Shown: piece by piece, positions 6,863-26,651 of the stretch
Numbering within the stretch: position 1 is the first letter of the stretch
How the letters are laid out: each line of letters starts with the position of its first letter
NCBI GenBank assembly: GCA_018710985.1
Contig: DVIV01000058.1
Location: 1-37,449, forward strand
Direction of reading: 5' to 3'
DNA: 37,449 nt
Origin: Candidatus Limiplasma pullicola
Lineage (GTDB): Bacteria; Bacillota; Clostridia; Christensenellales; Aristaeellaceae
Position numbers and translations under genes: made by a program
The notes under the pieces: model-generated
What the model saw: only the letters and a program-made list of their open reading frames with translations
Databases searched by the model: none
Told to the model about the DNA's origin: nothing

Positions 6863-7927
6863 TTAGTCGCGCCGCGTCACTTCCAGCGGTATGCGCGGTG
6901 CAAGGCGGCGCAGACCCTCCTGCGACAGCGCCCGCTTCAAATCCTCAAACCCTTTCACCGGCCCGATGGCTTCAATCATCGGGCCGTCCTTTTTTTCCGC
7001 AATCTCCATCAAAGCCATGCCGCGCAGCCAACACAGCATGGAGGTTTCAATCCAGTACAGAAAGCGCGTGCCCGGGGAAAGGGCCTCCAACCGCTTCATT
7101 TTCAGGTACATCTCCACCCCATCCAGCACGTCGTGCCAGATGTCCACATAGGCATAGTCGTACCCCTGGCCGCCCATATGGGCGGCGTATTCATAGGCAT
7201 CTTCCTCCACGACACTCACTTTTTCCGCATTTTCAAAGGCGGGCAGAATATGCTCCCGAAACAGCGCAATCACGGATGGGTCGCGCTCAATCACCGTCAC
7301 GCGGGTCACCTCCGGCTTTCGTGCCGCCATAAAGGCATAGTAACCCAGCCCCAGTCCGAACACAGCCACCTTTCCGCTCACAGCCTGAATGTCCGCGGTC
7401 ACGGTGCTCAGCTCGCTCGGGGTGACGGTCATCCATTCCCGGCCGTTTTGCGTGACAACAGGGGCCTCAAACGGCTCATTGAAAAACCCGGCCTGCGGCA
7501 CCTCGCGACCGTCGGGCAAGAGCAGCATGTCGGCCGAAACGAAGGCCTCATACGCCTCGATACGCTTATACCCCAGGGTCCACTCCCCCTGCCGCGCCTG
7601 CGGCAGACGCACGGAGGCATAGTACGGGTCGGCACGGCAGGCCGCCGCATCCAACCGGTGCACACCGGGCCGGAAGTAGCGCTCCGCCATTTTCCGCGCC
7701 CACGGGTCGCCTGCGATGTCCAGCCCACAGGCCGAAGCCATCAGCAGCCGGTAGGCCTCCTCTTCGGTCACGCCGCATTCGCGGGTCAGCGCCTCAACGT
7801 CCTCGCCGCTGACAAAGCGCGGACACAGATTCAGATACCCGCTGAACCATTCCAGCGCGCGCAGGTTTTCCTCCGCAAGGTCCAGCAGGGCCTTGGTTGC
7901 GTCGTCTCCGGCAAATGCAAGGGGCAT
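6863..7927 (-). CDS. Class I SAM-dependent methyltransferase-fold protein, unknown substrate
   Basis: A 354-residue protein. The N-terminal half (1-165) is mostly helical and not recognised. The C-terminal half carries a Rossmann fold of the class I methyltransferase or spermidine-synthase type: VAVFGLGLGYYAFMAA (motif I, about 188-203), VTVIERDPSVIALF (acidic end of strand 2), VVEEDAYEY and YDYAYVDIWHD (motif IV region). The spermidine-synthase-like order suggests SAM or decarboxylated SAM binding, but no substrate can be named. SD AAGGAGG lies 8 to 14 bases before the start. It follows pyrG on the same strand and converges on ligA, whose terminator lies in its 3' end. Confidence 0.7.
   Translation of the reverse strand: MPLAFAGDDATKALLDLAEENLRALEWFSGYLNLCPRFVSGEDVEALTRECGVTEEEAYRLLMASACGLDIAGDPWARKMAERYFRPGVHRLDAAACRADPYYASVRLPQARQGEWTLGYKRIEAYEAFVSADMLLLPDGREVPQAGFFNEPFEAPVVTQNGREWMTVTPSELSTVTADIQAVSGKVAVFGLGLGYYAFMAARKPEVTRVTVIERDPSVIALFREHILPAFENAEKVSVVEEDAYEYAAHMGGQGYDYAYVDIWHDVLDGVEMYLKMKRLEALSPGTRFLYWIETSMLCWLRGMALMEIAEKKDGPMIEAIGPVKGFEDLKRALSQEGLRRLAPRIPLEVTRRD
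6960..6997 (+). terminator. Intrinsic terminator of yerC-pcrA-ligA, inside the opposing gene
   Basis: On the + strand GGCCCGATG (6960-6968) and CATCGGGCC (6977-6985) form a perfect 9-bp stem with an 8-base loop, followed by GTCC and eight T (6990-6997). No T-tract follows on the minus strand. It lies 103 bases past the ligA stop, inside the 3' coding part of the minus-strand methyltransferase-like gene, where it encodes KKDGPMIEAIGPV. Confidence 0.8.
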
Positions 7928-8008: not shown

Positions 8009-9610
8009 TCAGGCCTGCGCGCATTCCAGGCCGCGTTGCACCAGACGCACAAACAAAGGATGCGGCTTGCCCGGCCGGCTGATGTATTCCGGATGATATG
8101 CCACTGCGATATAAAAAGGATGGCCCTCCATTTCAAACGCTTCGGGGTAGCCCGCCTCCACGCTCACGCCCGCCAGGTGCAGGCCGCTGCGCTCCAGATC
8201 GGGCACATAGGCCGGGTCCACCTCGTAGCGGTTGGAGTGGCGCTCGTTGACGACCTCGGCGCCGTAGATGCGCCGCAATTCGCCGTCCAGCAGGCGCACA
8301 CCGCTGCTGCCCATGCGCGTCGCGGCGCGGCTGTCGTTCTGGCAGATGCGGTCCTCCGGCACGCGGACCACGGGATGCGTCGTCTCGGGGTCTGCCTCGG
8401 CGGTATGCGCGTCAGCGATGCCCAGCAGGCTGCGCACCGCCTCCACCACCGCCAGCTGCATGCCGAAGCCGATGGCCAGAAAGGGCACGCCTTGCTCGCG
8501 CGCATAGCGCGCCGCCACGATCATGCCGTCTACCCCGCGGTCGCCAAAACCGCCGGGCGCCACGATGGCATCATAGCCGGCCAGCAGTGCCTCCGCCGTA
8601 TCCGGTTCGATCTTCTCGGCGTTCACCAAGTCGATCCGGGGACGTGCGCCGCACTGTGCGCACGCGTGGCGCAGCGCCTCGGTCACGGACAGGTAGGCAT
8701 CCGGCATGGCGGTGTACTTGCCCACCAGCGCCACACGAAGCGGCGCGGCGGCTTCGTCCACGCGCCTGACATAGCTTTTCAGCGCGTCCAGATCGGGTGC
8801 AGGGTTTTCCAGATGCAGCTCCGAAAGCACCGCGCGGGCCAGCCCTTCCTTATCCAGCACCAGCGGCAGCCTGCACAGCGGCTCCACGTCCATGTTCTGT
8901 ATCACATTGGCGGTTTTGACGTTGCAAAACAGCGCGATTTTTTCCTTGCCTTCACCCGTCATGGGCTTTTCCGTGCGGCAGACGATCACATCCGGCTGAA
9001 TGCCCGCGGAACGAAGCGCGCGCACGCTGCTCTGCGTGGGCTTGGTTTTCAGCTCACCCGCGGTGGAGATATAGGGCATCAGCGTCAAATGGATATAGCA
9101 GCAGTCATGCGGATCGCTGCGTTCCAGGCGCATCTGGCGGATAGCTTCCAGGTAAACCGCCGCCTCCATGTCCCCCACGGTGCCGCCGATGTCCACAATG
9201 CTGATCTGCGCGCCGGAGCGCTCCGCCACGCCTTCAATATGGCTTTTGATCTCATTGGCCACATGCGGGATGGCCTGAATGGTCATGCCATGGAAATCGC
9301 CCCGAAGCTCGCGTTCCAGAAGGCGGCGATGAATCTTGCCCGTGGTGCAGCAGCATTCGCCGGGCAGGGTTTCATCCACGAGCCGTTCGTAGTTGCCCAA
9401 ATCCAGGTCCACGGCATGCCCGTCCTCGGTGATGAAAGCCTCGCCGTGCTCCAGCGGGCTAAGAAAGGCGGGCTCGGCATTGTAATAGAGGTTGAGCTTC
9501 TGCATGTTTACGCGATAGCCTCGCGCCTTGAGCAGGCAGCCCAGCGCCGCGGCGGTCACGCCCTTGCCCAGCGAGGAAACGACGCCGCCGGTAATAAACA
9601 CATATTTCAT
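8009..9610 (-). CDS. pyrG: CTP synthase homologue lacking the glutaminase cysteine
   Basis: CTP synthase aminates UTP to CTP, using ammonia released from glutamine by a C-terminal class I amidotransferase domain. The length of 533 residues is full. The synthetase domain has the P-loop SSLGKGVTAA (12-21), DLDLGNYER (68-76), IGGTVGD (141-147) and the UTP/CTP-site KTKPTQSSV (188-196). The amidotransferase domain has APGGFGDRG (351-359) and YHPEYISRP with the His and Glu of the triad (506, 508). The nucleophile elbow, normally GICLGMQ, reads AIGFGMQ, so the catalytic Cys is G381 (codon GGC, 8468-8470). The KLDPYINVDPGTMSP loop reads KLNLYYNAEPAFLSP, and the Mg-binding Glu of VEIGG is Asp (D140). 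It may use free ammonia, be a paralogue with a new role, or be losing function. SD AAGGAG is present. Confidence 0.88.
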   Translation of the reverse strand: MKYVFITGGVVSSLGKGVTAAALGCLLKARGYRVNMQKLNLYYNAEPAFLSPLEHGEAFITEDGHAVDLDLGNYERLVDETLPGECCCTTGKIHRRLLERELRGDFHGMTIQAIPHVANEIKSHIEGVAERSGAQISIVDIGGTVGDMEAAVYLEAIRQMRLERSDPHDCCYIHLTLMPYISTAGELKTKPTQSSVRALRSAGIQPDVIVCRTEKPMTGEGKEKIALFCNVKTANVIQNMDVEPLCRLPLVLDKEGLARAVLSELHLENPAPDLDALKSYVRRVDEAAAPLRVALVGKYTAMPDAYLSVTEALRHACAQCGARPRIDLVNAEKIEPDTAEALLAGYDAIVAPGGFGDRGVDGMIVAARYAREQGVPFLAIGFGMQLAVVEAVRSLLGIADAHTAEADPETTHPVVRVPEDRICQNDSRAATRMGSSGVRLLDGELRRIYGAEVVNERHSNRYEVDPAYVPDLERSGLHLAGVSVEAGYPEAFEMEGHPFYIAVAYHPEYISRPGKPHPLFVRLVQRGLECAQA

Positions 9611-10321: not shown

Positions 10322-10867
10322 CTATCCCTCCTGCCTCGGTTGTCCGTCCATGTGTGCAATCCAGTCCGCAAGCACCCGTCCGCCGCCTTCAGCCAGGGGG
10401 AGGCCCATCCGCAGGCGGCGCGCGGACTTGCCGGTCAGCGCGGGTACGGCGGAAATCAGCGGTCCCAGCGCGCCTGCCGCCAGCTTCACCACTTCCCGCA
10501 CCTGCGCCATGGGCTGGCGCTCAAGCGGTGCAGGGTGGAGCAACAGCAGGCGGCACAGGGCATAGGCGGGATGCAGCGCTTCCTCGCGCGGCAGCGCGGG
10601 CAGGCATGCCGGCAGCCGGTCCAGCCTGTCGCGCCAGCTCTCCGCCGTCCAGTCCAGCCGCCACAGACCCGTGGCCGGGTCCGTTTCGTATCGCACGCCC
10701 TGCGCGTCCAGCGCAGCCATGGCGGGGACCAGCCGGCCGGTCCGTCGCGGCAGGTCGCTCACCCACAGGGCGCCATGGTCCAGGCACAGGCGCACGAAGC
10801 AGGGCGCATCCGCCGCGCTCCTCAGCGCCTCATACACCGCGCGCTGCGCGGCCGCCAGGTCAATCAT
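10322..10867 (-). CDS. Unrecognised protein in the DUF1934 operon
   Basis: A 181-residue protein that I do not recognise. It is rich in Ala, Leu and Arg, with mostly helical prediction and no membrane segment or signal. The N-terminus (AVYEALRSAADAPCFVRLCLDHGALWVSDLPRR, then a VRYETDPATGLWRLDW strand pair) could be a small winged-helix-like domain. The C-terminal half is helical. Coding status is supported by tight packing: its start overlaps the end of the DUF1934 gene by 8 bases, and its stop is one base from the hydrolase start, whose ribosome site lies within this gene's last codons. Confidence 0.7.
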   Translation of the reverse strand: MIDLAAAQRAVYEALRSAADAPCFVRLCLDHGALWVSDLPRRTGRLVPAMAALDAQGVRYETDPATGLWRLDWTAESWRDRLDRLPACLPALPREEALHPAYALCRLLLLHPAPLERQPMAQVREVVKLAAGALGPLISAVPALTGKSARRLRMGLPLAEGGGRVLADWIAHMDGQPRQEG

Positions 10868-23429: not shown

Positions 23430-26400
23430 TCAGCCCCATTTTACTCCTTCGGTCACTTTGGCGTCGGGGGGCAGCTCCGGCTTGGGACCAAAGTAGATGA
23501 GCATCTGATCATCGGTAAGCTCCCATTTTTCCTGCACCATTTCATAGAAATAGGTGGGGCGCTTCTTGAGGACGTTGCGCGTGTAGTCCAGACGGGTGTT
23601 CCAGTAGCGCATCGCGCCCTCCGGCGTGGTGGGCGAATCCATGTTGATGTTCTTGTCGTTCTCCTCGGCCCAGCGCGCAAAGTGCAGCGACATTTCCGGC
23701 TCCAGGGTAGCGGCCATCTCGTCAAAGAGCTCCGTCATAAACTCGGTGGTGAACACCTGATAGATCTCGCCCAGACGGGTGAGGAACTTGTGGAGCATCT
23801 CCTCGTTTTCCAGCAGCTTGCGGATCAGCGTGTTATTGATGTTCTGCTGGCCTGCGCCCGATTCCTTCAGGTAGCTGGTGGGACTGTCAAAGCCGGACTG
23901 GAACAGGCCGTAGTCCGCGTCGTAGAAAATCCACTTCCACTTCTGCCCCTCCCCGTCCAGCTTGTAGAAGCGGATGTTGCCGGGGTCGGAGTTGCCGAAG
24001 AACATCTCAAAGGCCATGTAGTCGAAGTAGTTGTCCACGTCGATGTTGTCCAGGATGTACTGCAGATCCTCCTCGTTGGTGCCGGGCGAGGACGCCTCCA
24101 CCTTCTTGATCATGGCCTTGTATTCCTGATTGCTGCCATAATTGACGGTGCCGCTGGCCTCCAGAATGTCCATGTTGTCGGCCTCCTCCAGCGAGAGGCC
24201 CTCGTGCTGTGCGACAAAGAAGCGGTCCACGCGCTCGCGCAGGTTGTAATGGCCCCAGTACACGCCGTTGAGGTAGACCACCACGGGCCTCCATTCCTGG
24301 TAGAGCACGTCGCTGGGATTGTCGCTGACCTCGTTGAAGCGCTTGATCAGCTGGCTCTGGAACGCGTCGTTGAAGCGCGTCCACACGCTGTCGTTGCCGC
24401 CCATGCGCAGCACAAAGCTCTTGTACTGGGTGAAGGGCAGGTCCTCAAAGAGCTGCGCGTCAAAATACTTATTGCCGTACTTGGCCTTGGCGCGCACCTT
24501 GAAGGTCTTTTGCGGCATATCCAGGCTGTACTGGCCCTGCAGGCCGAACTCGCAGTCCTGGTCAATGAGGGTATTGCCCTCCTTGTCGTAAAACTCCACA
24601 TGTCCGGGACGCGCTTCCTTGCCGACCGTGCGGTAAAGCGGGTATTCGCCCGTGGTCAGCTTGAAGGGCAGCTTGCCGGGCTCCTTGTAGAGCTCGCCGC
24701 CAATGGCCAGCATGCCGTCCTCCTCATTCCACAGCTCGTCGGGTTCGGTGACCAGGCTGACGATGGGGAACGCGTGATAGAGGTTCATCAGGTAGGTGGC
24801 AGTCACGGTTTCGCTGGGCTGCAGCGTTCCGCTGGGGTCGAATGCGCGGGCGCGCAGCACGGTCACCTTGTTGAAGGTCAGGGTATCACCTTCGTAGCGG
24901 ATGCCGTTTTCCTCCGTGGGAATGGAGGCGTCGGTGGTGTAATAGACCACGGTGCCCTCCGGCACATTGATGGTCACTTCGATTTCGCCTTTATATTCGC
25001 CGCCGGGCAGGGACAGGGAGGGATTTTCGGTATAGCCGTAGTATCCCGAGCCGTTTTCCGCGCCGGGCGTGGGAACGTCGTAGTAATAAAAGCCGCTCTG
25101 GCCAAGAGTGCGGCCGTAGCTGTGGTCTGTGGGGATGAGGCTCAAAGGGATGCGGTCCAAAACGCGGCCCGTCGGGTCGCAAAAGGAAATGGTTTCGCCG
25201 CCCGCACGGGCAATGGAAAAATTGGCATGCAAATCCGTAATGGTAGACAATTCCGCCTGTCCGTCGAGATAAATGATCTTGTATTCGCCCGGCGCAATGG
25301 CAGTTCCCTGGGGGAACTGCCATTTGCGCGGGCGACCGAGATCGTCGCTCAGGCCGTAGTTGCTGAGATCCACGGTCTGGTCGGACGTATTGTAAAGCTC
25401 CACATAATCGGTGGTAATCGCAGCGGGACCCAGCCCTATGGTGTCGTTGGAGGCCATGACCTCGCTGATGATGACGCCGGTGGGGTTATAGGCGCGGATC
25501 AGCTCGTCGCTGCGCGCCTGCCCCTGGGCATTGTTGGGCTGGCCGGGCGTGCTGAGCTCAAACAGCTTCCATTCGCCCGTGTCGCTGCGGCCGTAGGAAT
25601 AGTCCTCCGGCACATTTTCGATGCTCACACGGTCCACCAGGCGGCCATAGCTGTCGCTGAGCACGATGCTTTCTCGCTCGGCGGAGATGGAGAAATTGGT
25701 ATGAGGCACGCCGTTTTCCTGCAGCTTGTCCTTGCCGGAGCAGTACACCAGATAGTAGCCGTTCGCCGGTATGGTTGCGCCGTCCGGGAAGCGCCACTTG
25801 GTTGGCTTATTCTCCTTGTCGCTCAGATAATAGCCGGTCAGGGAAATGGGGCTGTCGGTGCTGTTCTTCAGCTCCACCCAGTCCACAATCTCGCCGTCCT
25901 CGTCGGGGATGCCCACCTTGGGGTCGGGGCACACCTCGTTGATGACCAGCGCGCCGCTCTCCACCGAATTGGCCGAGCGATATTCCACAAAGCCTTCTTC
26001 GGTGTTTTCATAGCCGGGGCTGTAGTAGGTGGTAGTCTCGTAGTGGCGCACGCCGTCCTCGTCGATGCCTGTGAGCGCATAGCTGGTATCCGCCGTCAGC
26101 GTGGGCGTGGCCAACTCGTCGATGAGGTACATATCGGGGTCATACAGGTAGAGGTGGTCGCCTGCCGAAGAAATCTTGAACTTGCCGTGGAAGGGCTTGG
26201 ACGGGTCCAGCTGATAGCTGTCGCTGGCAAAGACGATCACACGCTCCCCCGCCTTGAGCGTATAGCTTGGGAAGGGGAAGGTGATGCGGTCCGTACGGTT
26301 GGTGAGCATCACGCCTTCCATGTCCAGATCCGCGCCTGTGCCGTTGTACAATTCCAGCCAGTCGTTGAACTCGCCGTTTTCGTCCGGTACGGCGCTGTTG

Positions 26401-26651
26401 TTGGCAGCCATCACCTCGCTGATGACCAGGCCGTCAAACCGGCTCCCGCCGACCCGTCTGCCCGCTTCCTTGGGGCTGACGATGTAAATCAAGATCAGCA
26501 GCGCCGAAAACAATAGCAGCAGCGGCAGCACCTTTTGCAGCTGGCTTTTGCGCTTTTTGGGCGCGTAGTCCTTGCGCGGCCTCGGCGCATTGGGCGTGGC
26601 GGGGTCCGTGCGCGTGGGACGGCGCTCCTGCTGCGGCGTGTTGTACTGCAT
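23430..26651 (-). CDS. CotH-family kinase with three lamin-tail domains
   Basis: A 1073-residue membrane-anchored surface protein. Residues 1-40 are polar and cytoplasmic, 41-59 form a membrane segment, and the rest is outside. Three lamin-tail domains start at about 74, 230 and 385, each opening with a strand such as GLVISEVMAANN, ALVINEVCPDP or GVIISEVMASND and each containing a D-(W/Y)-(L/V)-E-L-(Y/K)-N pattern. A CHB/HEX-C-type beta-sandwich follows (about 545-630, VVYYTTDASIP). The CotH kinase domain comes last (about 650-1040), with VVVYLNGVYWGHYNLRERVDRFF and WKWIFYDADYGLF, resembling the CotH/Fam20-like Mg-binding region. CotH proteins phosphorylate Ser or Thr of surface or coat proteins. 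It is the first gene of the CotH/DUF4956/VTC set. Confidence 0.88.
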   Translation of the reverse strand: MQYNTPQQERRPTRTDPATPNAPRPRKDYAPKKRKSQLQKVLPLLLLFSALLILIYIVSPKEAGRRVGGSRFDGLVISEVMAANNSAVPDENGEFNDWLELYNGTGADLDMEGVMLTNRTDRITFPFPSYTLKAGERVIVFASDSYQLDPSKPFHGKFKISSAGDHLYLYDPDMYLIDELATPTLTADTSYALTGIDEDGVRHYETTTYYSPGYENTEEGFVEYRSANSVESGALVINEVCPDPKVGIPDEDGEIVDWVELKNSTDSPISLTGYYLSDKENKPTKWRFPDGATIPANGYYLVYCSGKDKLQENGVPHTNFSISAERESIVLSDSYGRLVDRVSIENVPEDYSYGRSDTGEWKLFELSTPGQPNNAQGQARSDELIRAYNPTGVIISEVMASNDTIGLGPAAITTDYVELYNTSDQTVDLSNYGLSDDLGRPRKWQFPQGTAIAPGEYKIIYLDGQAELSTITDLHANFSIARAGGETISFCDPTGRVLDRIPLSLIPTDHSYGRTLGQSGFYYYDVPTPGAENGSGYYGYTENPSLSLPGGEYKGEIEVTINVPEGTVVYYTTDASIPTEENGIRYEGDTLTFNKVTVLRARAFDPSGTLQPSETVTATYLMNLYHAFPIVSLVTEPDELWNEEDGMLAIGGELYKEPGKLPFKLTTGEYPLYRTVGKEARPGHVEFYDKEGNTLIDQDCEFGLQGQYSLDMPQKTFKVRAKAKYGNKYFDAQLFEDLPFTQYKSFVLRMGGNDSVWTRFNDAFQSQLIKRFNEVSDNPSDVLYQEWRPVVVYLNGVYWGHYNLRERVDRFFVAQHEGLSLEEADNMDILEASGTVNYGSNQEYKAMIKKVEASSPGTNEEDLQYILDNIDVDNYFDYMAFEMFFGNSDPGNIRFYKLDGEGQKWKWIFYDADYGLFQSGFDSPTSYLKESGAGQQNINNTLIRKLLENEEMLHKFLTRLGEIYQVFTTEFMTELFDEMAATLEPEMSLHFARWAEENDKNINMDSPTTPEGAMRYWNTRLDYTRNVLKKRPTYFYEMVQEKWELTDDQMLIYFGPKPELPPDAKVTEGVKWG

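Follow-up and report, generated by a model that had tools for sequence, protein, structure and literature searches.

A conserved CTP synthase paralog with glycine in place of the glutaminase nucleophile in Candidatus Limiplasma pullicola and its relatives, a putative ammonia-dependent isozyme

In every CTP synthase (CTPS) ATP phosphorylates UTP at O4, and class I glutamine amidotransferases (GATases) act via a Cys thioester. Ammonia-fed isozymes of glutamine-fed reactions are known from other enzyme families, to which the gene described here does not belong: AsnA is the ammonia-fed partner of the glutamine-fed AsnB in other bacteria, and mammalian CPS1 retains its glutamine amidotransferase (GAT) domain with a dead nucleophile. 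For the E. coli CTPS, the review PMC9138612 assigns T51, M52, V60, E68, L109, T438, and R468 to the GTP site, to activation, or to the NH3 gate; E68, R468, and R470 appear to contact GTP, and every V60 substitution tested hurt GTP binding and activation. The variants L109A and D107A are described in the same review as keeping glutamine hydrolysis and wild-type NH3-dependent CTP formation, with glutamine-dependent CTP formation markedly impaired. The wing variant R429A also shows wild-type NH3-dependent CTP formation and an impaired glutamine-dependent reaction, and with NH4Cl the variant G352P retains nearly full activity (PMC9138612). According to PMC9138612 and PMC8325340, the hole that admits outside NH3 is thought to be covered by GTP.

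The gene analyzed here, pyrG2, lies at positions 8009-9610 on the minus strand of a window of 37,449 nucleotides (the whole stretch of DNA analyzed, contig DVIV01000058.1 of Candidatus Limiplasma pullicola) and encodes a CTPS paralog of 533 aa with a synthase domain (PF06418) and a class I GATase domain (PF00117). Its translation contains VPFLAIGFGMQLAV, PGGFGDRG, and YHPEY. The nucleophile elbow reads AIGFGMQ, the codon at 8470-8468 is GGC, and the encoded Gly aligns with the nucleophile Cys379 of E. coli CTPS (residue numbers throughout are those of the E. coli reference, identical in sequence to PDB 1s1m). The initial annotation, made from the window alone, had placed a Gly codon for the nucleophile at 8468-8470 and had regarded the rest of the triad and the PGGFGDRG loop as kept; both readings are borne out by the translation, codon, and alignment, in which H515 and E517 are retained. 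The promoter, which had been called excellent, holds up as a consensus match: a sigma-70-like TTGACA-17-TACAAT element at 9676-9648 (minus strand), sharing bases with the end of the upstream gene, agrees with the consensus at 11 of 12 positions, and one such element was found against a mean of 0.6 in shuffles.

Against PF06418 (CTP_synth_N) the translation scores 342.2 bits (cut-off 26.1), and against the full-length models PRK05380 and TIGR00337 it scores 632.8 bits (cut-off 308) and 605.9 bits (cut-off 462.75), respectively. An AlphaFold2 model built from 23 paralogs has a mean pLDDT of 87.6; when the predicted fold was compared with the PDB, all of the 50 matches listed were CTPS or CTPS GAT domains, the best among them being 1vco (E 2.6e-62). 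Its sequence, its predicted fold, and its synthase site place pyrG2 in the CTPS family. With Gly at the nucleophile it lacks the catalytic Cys of the Cys-His-Glu triad and, judged by the nucleophile, PyrG2 is no glutamine-hydrolyzing CTPS.

A search of the window assembly with PF06418 gave two places, pyrG2 and a Cys-type pyrG at G000:C27:93900-95474 with the elbow PFLGLCLGMQ. A second pyrG with the Cys, which the initial annotation had proposed to look for, is therefore present, and pyrG2 as the sole pyrG of the genome is ruled out. The other readable class I GATase elbows of this genome keep Cys as well (CarA-like, GuaA-like, PyrG, and three others, the names being assigned by motif and length; one more match, the eighth, lies below threshold and is unreadable), so that the nucleophile loss is specific to the pyrG2 paralog.

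Genes of the pyrG2 type are present in 32 of the 308 genomes of the window's family, the window genome counted. These relatives are 49-74% identical to the window copy and the normal copies 47-48%. The paralog boundary was set by reading position 379, because the scores grade into those of the normal copies without a gap. Position 379 is Gly in 32 of 32 paralogs (30 aligned rows and the two remaining), which settles the proposed check of Gly conservation in close relatives, and the six rows fetched directly under the identity boundary all have Cys. Among the 50 normal CTPS rows the residue is Cys in 49 and Ser in one; rows are fetched loci, a subset of those found, and L019 and L078 are one gene, so that 50 rows stand for 49 genes. 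The codons at 379 in the 30 paralog rows are GGC (15), GGT (8), GGG (6), and GGA (1). Four different Gly codons among 30 genes, with Gly fixed in the paralogs of the family, rule out a sequencing error at this position. In a tree of 81 rows the paralogs form one clade with branch support 100/100 (one row, L085, was miscut, with 19% of columns filled in the tree, and was read correctly in the residue alignment). As a side observation, the genome G060, which also carries a Gly paralog, has a normal-type CTPS (L070) that reads GISLGMQ, with Ser at the nucleophile and His469 kept.

Beyond the family, no match in the order and class draws came close to the paralog scores. In an order-level draw of 396 genomes five paralogs scored 891-942 bits and the best other match 750; in a class-level draw of 391 genomes the best match besides the window scored 767 bits, with Cys at the nucleophile in the loci that were fetched from this draw. 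The best 80 loci of a genome-contig collection, from which records near the window were possibly left out, contained no Gly type among the 78 that are readable. When these 80 loci and the order draw are taken together (109 loci), 100 read Cys, five Gly, and two Ser, and two were unread; all five Gly loci come from the window's family. A phage origin of pyrG2 was rejected, since tblastn against phage records gave 16 records, all below 60% identity. In the window's order, the only CTPS match of the genome G351 (93% complete; L216/L228) has a Ser nucleophile together with Asn469, and two of its genus-mates (L018, L212) have Cys, which would allow a further independent loss.

To see what else has changed, the 30 paralog rows were compared with the 50 normal rows, a position counting as conserved when shared by at least 90% of the normal rows. 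At 32 of the 234 conserved positions the residue is lost in at least 90% of the paralogs. T51, E68, L109, T438, and R468 are changed in all 30 paralogs, and M52 and V60 in 29. The replacements are A or P at E68, H, R, K, or Q at L109, and S, G, D, or E at R468 (30/30 each), and A, S, T, or I at V60 (29/30, Ala or Ser in 27). H469 is Asn in 30/30, I148 is Met in 29/30, L380 is F or Y in 28/30 with its elbow neighbor G377 changed too, and the wing motif GGTMRLG is replaced. Besides Asn469, the paralogs have invariants of their own at Pro416 (30/30) and Arg419 (29/30). Of the 14 conserved residues assigned to the GTP site and NH3 tunnel the paralogs have lost seven, compared with 25 of the 220 others (Fisher one-sided p = 8e-4), a value that is only descriptive because the list was written after the residue table had been seen. 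The kept half includes P54, H57, G352, R356, and R470. The set of features that marks a GTP allosteric site (E68, R468, R470, L109, and the wing) is thus broken in the paralogs, in which E68, L109, and R468, and T438 besides, are lost without exception. Leu109 is found in 45 of 50 normal copies, and since the position varies in Cys-type copies its loss alone is no sign of lost glutamine use.

The synthase site is a different matter: 0 of 14 conserved residues are lost, on a list that we drew from general knowledge of CTPS structures. K18, K40, D72, D147, E149, K187, K189, and K223 are kept in 30/30 paralogs and E140 in 29/30; we take these nine to belong to the synthase site, where D147 and E149 presumably bind the pyrimidine. 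The window copy is the one with Asp at 140, and it also carries D42N, both absent from the other 29 paralog rows; its own rate may therefore be below that of its relatives. In the GAT domain H515 and E517 are kept in 30/30, and Q383, E403, and R470 in 29/30 each. The pyrG2 gene is intact, conserved, and of single origin in the family, and it has kept the ATP/UTP/Mg site and lost most contacts of the GTP site along with the nucleophile for glutamine hydrolysis. Of the phrase "otherwise complete protein" in the initial annotation, the open frame of 533 aa stands and the completeness does not, as GTP-site and tunnel residues are altered too. Compared with the glutamine-hydrolyzing PyrG (TIGR00337, E. 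coli 1s1m), PyrG2 shares the two domains, the predicted fold, the conserved synthase-site residues, and the His-Glu of the triad, whereas the Cys is missing, T51, E68, L109, T438, R468, and H469 are replaced, and the paralogs have fixed residues of their own.

A parallel case was found in the genus of Sporosarcina sp. JAI121. The CTPS of this strain (L127) turned up in a scan of the contig collection with the elbow GISLGMQ and is the only CTPS match of its genome; by protein search, 60 of the 61 genomes of the genus have one CTPS match. Two CTPS pieces in the genome G1068 (L320, L321), on two contigs and both without Cys, cover the same part of the query and so probably represent two CTPS genes; one of them is only 55% identical to the Sporosarcina query, so that this piece may be either an additional gene or foreign sequence in the assembly. 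In the 62 rows from the genus (L260-L321), position 379 is Ser in 29, Gly in 30, Ala in three, and Cys in none, and is therefore variable in contrast to the fixed Gly of the window-family paralogs. In the Sporosarcina family, the 30 best-scoring loci of a 121-genome draw have Cys in 30/30, and in the tree the Sporosarcina clade stands apart from the window clade and beside its own Cys-type family. Like pyrG2, the Sporosarcina enzymes have position 109 non-Leu (61/61 rows), T51 changed (52/61), the wing altered in most, and the synthase residues kept. They differ in their separate origin, in being the only copy in nearly all genomes, and in retaining E68, V60, and R468, so that the GTP site was not dismantled in the same way. 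Among 30 relatives of Sporosarcina that have the Cys, position 109 is Asn in 12. A strict covariation of positions 379 and 469 (218 rows, some genes double) was refuted, since 49 of the 62 Cys-less Sporosarcina rows keep H469. No title among those listed in an open-licence library concerned a natural nucleophile-less CTPS or such Sporosarcina enzymes, which does not prove that none has been described.

Other nucleotide-pathway GATases of the genus are affected as well. Of 30 rows fetched for CarA (L353, L354, L370-L397), the 28 of CarA length all have Gly at the nucleophile (GIGLGHQ); the other two (L379, L388; GVCLGHQ) belong to short GATases of their own, with frames of 219 and 211 aa. GuaA lacks the Cys in 33 of 42 rows (L356, L360, L398-L437): 40 rows have Ser (19), Gly (8), Ala (2), Asn (2), or Cys (9), and both additional rows are without Cys. 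Seventeen of these 40 rows were read by eye, and a recount left two previously read rows unread (one Ser, one Cys). The GuaA of strain JAI121 itself (L411) keeps the Cys. Across several enzymes of nucleotide synthesis, the genus thus seems to have mostly abandoned glutamine amidotransfer. PMC7775470 describes ammonia as mandatory for S. pasteurii and glutamine synthetase activity as lacking; it also states that omitting the ammonia source did not alter growth, urea supplying ammonia, and that the strain grew without glutamine. Gene content does not reflect this reported lack of activity, as a whole-length glutamine synthetase match is present in four of five genomes of the genus, not necessarily of S. 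pasteurii (G1090, G1087, G1050, and G1072; G1060 has fragments only). A genus with a nucleophile-less CTPS as sole copy suggests that such an enzyme can suffice, and the Sporosarcina CTPS would presumably run on ammonia.

Taking these observations together, we propose that pyrG2 rather likely encodes a second CTPS isozyme that depends on ammonia and is independent of GTP, in addition to the glutamine-dependent enzyme. The nucleophile, the GTP contacts, and the lid have been lost together while the ligase site is kept, as would be expected of an enzyme fed by free NH3, and in lacking the glutaminase nucleophile with an intact synthase site pyrG2 has the sequence features of such an isozyme. In the proposed mechanism, UTP would be phosphorylated at O4 by ATP on PyrG2, free NH3 would enter by the cleft otherwise capped by GTP and pass a gate widened by V60A/S, and it would then displace the phosphate to give CTP. 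Glutamine would not be hydrolyzed, and GTP would be neither activator nor blocker. The V60 change need be no loss in PyrG2, as the effects of V60 substitutions in E. coli concern GTP binding and activation. The E. coli variants L109A, D107A, R429A, and G352P in PMC9138612 resemble the expected PyrG2, with the NH3 reaction kept and the glutamine reaction impaired or undetectable; they differ in being single laboratory substitutions with the Cys kept, whereas pyrG2 was changed at several sites in evolution. The cell would then own a glutamine-fed PyrG and an ammonia-fed PyrG2, comparable to AsnB and AsnA. As the window genome also has the normal PyrG, it can probably do without the ammonia route.

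All 30 paralog rows have open frames of at least 529 residues, and third-position changes are 2.4 to 5.8 times as frequent as second-position changes in the six pairs examined. The paralogs change about 2.2 times as fast as the normal copies in both domains. Over 105 genome pairs, the ratio of GAT to synthase distances is 1.89 for paralogs and 1.96 for normal copies. The GAT domain is thus no more relaxed, as measured against the synthase domain, than in normal copies, which together with the full retention of His515 and Glu517 disfavors a merely vestigial domain and leaves room for a new task such as ligand sensing. The initial annotation had suggested a kept role, and the open frames, the fixed Gly, and the excess of third- over second-position changes agree with this; of its suggestions, ammonia-dependent CTP synthesis has the strongest support, from which residues were kept and which were lost and from the Sporosarcina parallel. 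A tentative and in our view unlikely extension is that the GAT domain was rebuilt as a non-hydrolytic sensor by which glutamine or another nitrogen signal gates the ammonia-fed CTPS, so that the switch between PyrG and PyrG2 would follow the nitrogen status. Its pocket would be the emptied nucleophile site with the fixed Gly379, Asn469, the mostly aromatic residue 380, and the kept His and Glu.

We think it quite unlikely that PyrG2 is a regulatory or structural paralog that tunes the Cys-type PyrG by joining it in mixed tetramers or filaments, with minor chemistry of its own. The continued constraint on the GAT domain would fit such a subunit, as would the CTPS L4 loop, which extends to the neighboring subunit (PMC9138612), and 27 of the 32 paralog genomes have another CTPS match. 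However, a purely structural subunit would need none of the synthase-site residues, and not one of the 14 conserved is lost. The paralog also stands alone in five of the 32 genomes (G010, G063, G073, G080, and G105), although these prove little because CTPS is often missing from the assemblies of the family, 93 of 308 of which are without any CTPS match. Of the 120 good genomes among the 308, 30 have no match, and the Pfam model finds none in 59 of 200; the same model matches in 121 of 121 Sporosarcina-family genomes. Either the gene has been lost and cytidine is salvaged, or the assemblies have gaps.

The genomic neighborhood bears on a changed substrate. Upstream of pyrG2 on the minus strand lie genes for a metallo-beta-lactamase-fold (MBL) protein (PF13483; 9673-10320), directly adjacent, a 181-aa protein without Pfam match (10322-10867), and a DUF1934 protein (PF09148; 10860-11297); we used a home-made gene caller, which set the starts of the first and third and missed some genes. 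This row, divergent from ispE, is complete in eight of 29 loci of relatives, all of them close relatives, and is partly visible at a contig end in one more; the remaining loci have different neighbors. A biosynthetic cluster around pyrG2 was ruled out, since the neighbors differ outside close relatives and no pathway is readable, and neighbors shared by close relatives only favor vertical inheritance over a specialized pathway. Other genes were noted in passing. A 354-aa protein with a weak spermidine-synthase/methyltransferase match (6863-7927, minus strand) adjoins pyrG2 in the window and in L033 only among the 29 loci, and a gene whose sequence resembles RlmI-type rRNA methyltransferases is present in eight of the 29 (L037, L039, L102, L103, L105, L109, L111, and L112), close to pyrG2 in L039 and L111. 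The window also encodes, at 23430-26651 on the minus strand, a 1073-aa protein with lamin-tail domains and a CotH kinase domain.

It is improbable that pyrG2 is a neofunctional amidoligase, with a UTP-like acceptor and, in place of ammonia, a small primary amine or a hydrazine-like compound as donor, or with a modified pyrimidine as acceptor. The Ala or Ser at gate residue V60, the F or Y at L380, and the Met at I148, which lies between D147 and E149, would be compatible with such chemistry, but the remaining acceptor-site residues are kept and pyrG2 has no accompanying pathway genes, its changing neighbors being unlike a biosynthetic cluster. Even less do we credit a slowly decaying duplicate heading for loss. 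The 2.2-fold faster evolution, the restriction of the paralog to about a tenth of the family genomes, and a G063 match that overruns a TGA at its extreme end (a slightly shorter match there is stop-free) could be read in this way; yet the frames stay open across divergence to about 50% identity, third-position changes are well above second-position changes, and the Gly, Pro416, Asn469, and Arg419 are fixed or nearly so. Glutamine hydrolysis by a Cys-free mechanism, for which the kept His515, Glu517, Q383, E403, and R470 might speak, is hardly believable, since class I GATases need the Cys thioester, the Gly has no side chain to offer, and the elbow residues G377 and L380 are altered too.

For an ammonia-fed isozyme the consequences reach beyond this locus. 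On its sequence the pyrG2 type is a real, conserved CTPS variant, and current family models misname such nucleophile-dead copies: pyrG2 is labelled "glutamine hydrolyzing CTP synthase". Natural variants of this kind could be used to separate NH3 entry, GTP control, and glutamine hydrolysis, a task that laboratory mutants have addressed one residue at a time. Textbook accounts present CTPS as using glutamine and requiring GTP. A Gly clade in the window's family and an unrelated genus seemingly dependent on a nucleophile-less CTPS would show that the coupling to glutamine and GTP is dispensable, presumably where ammonia is plentiful.
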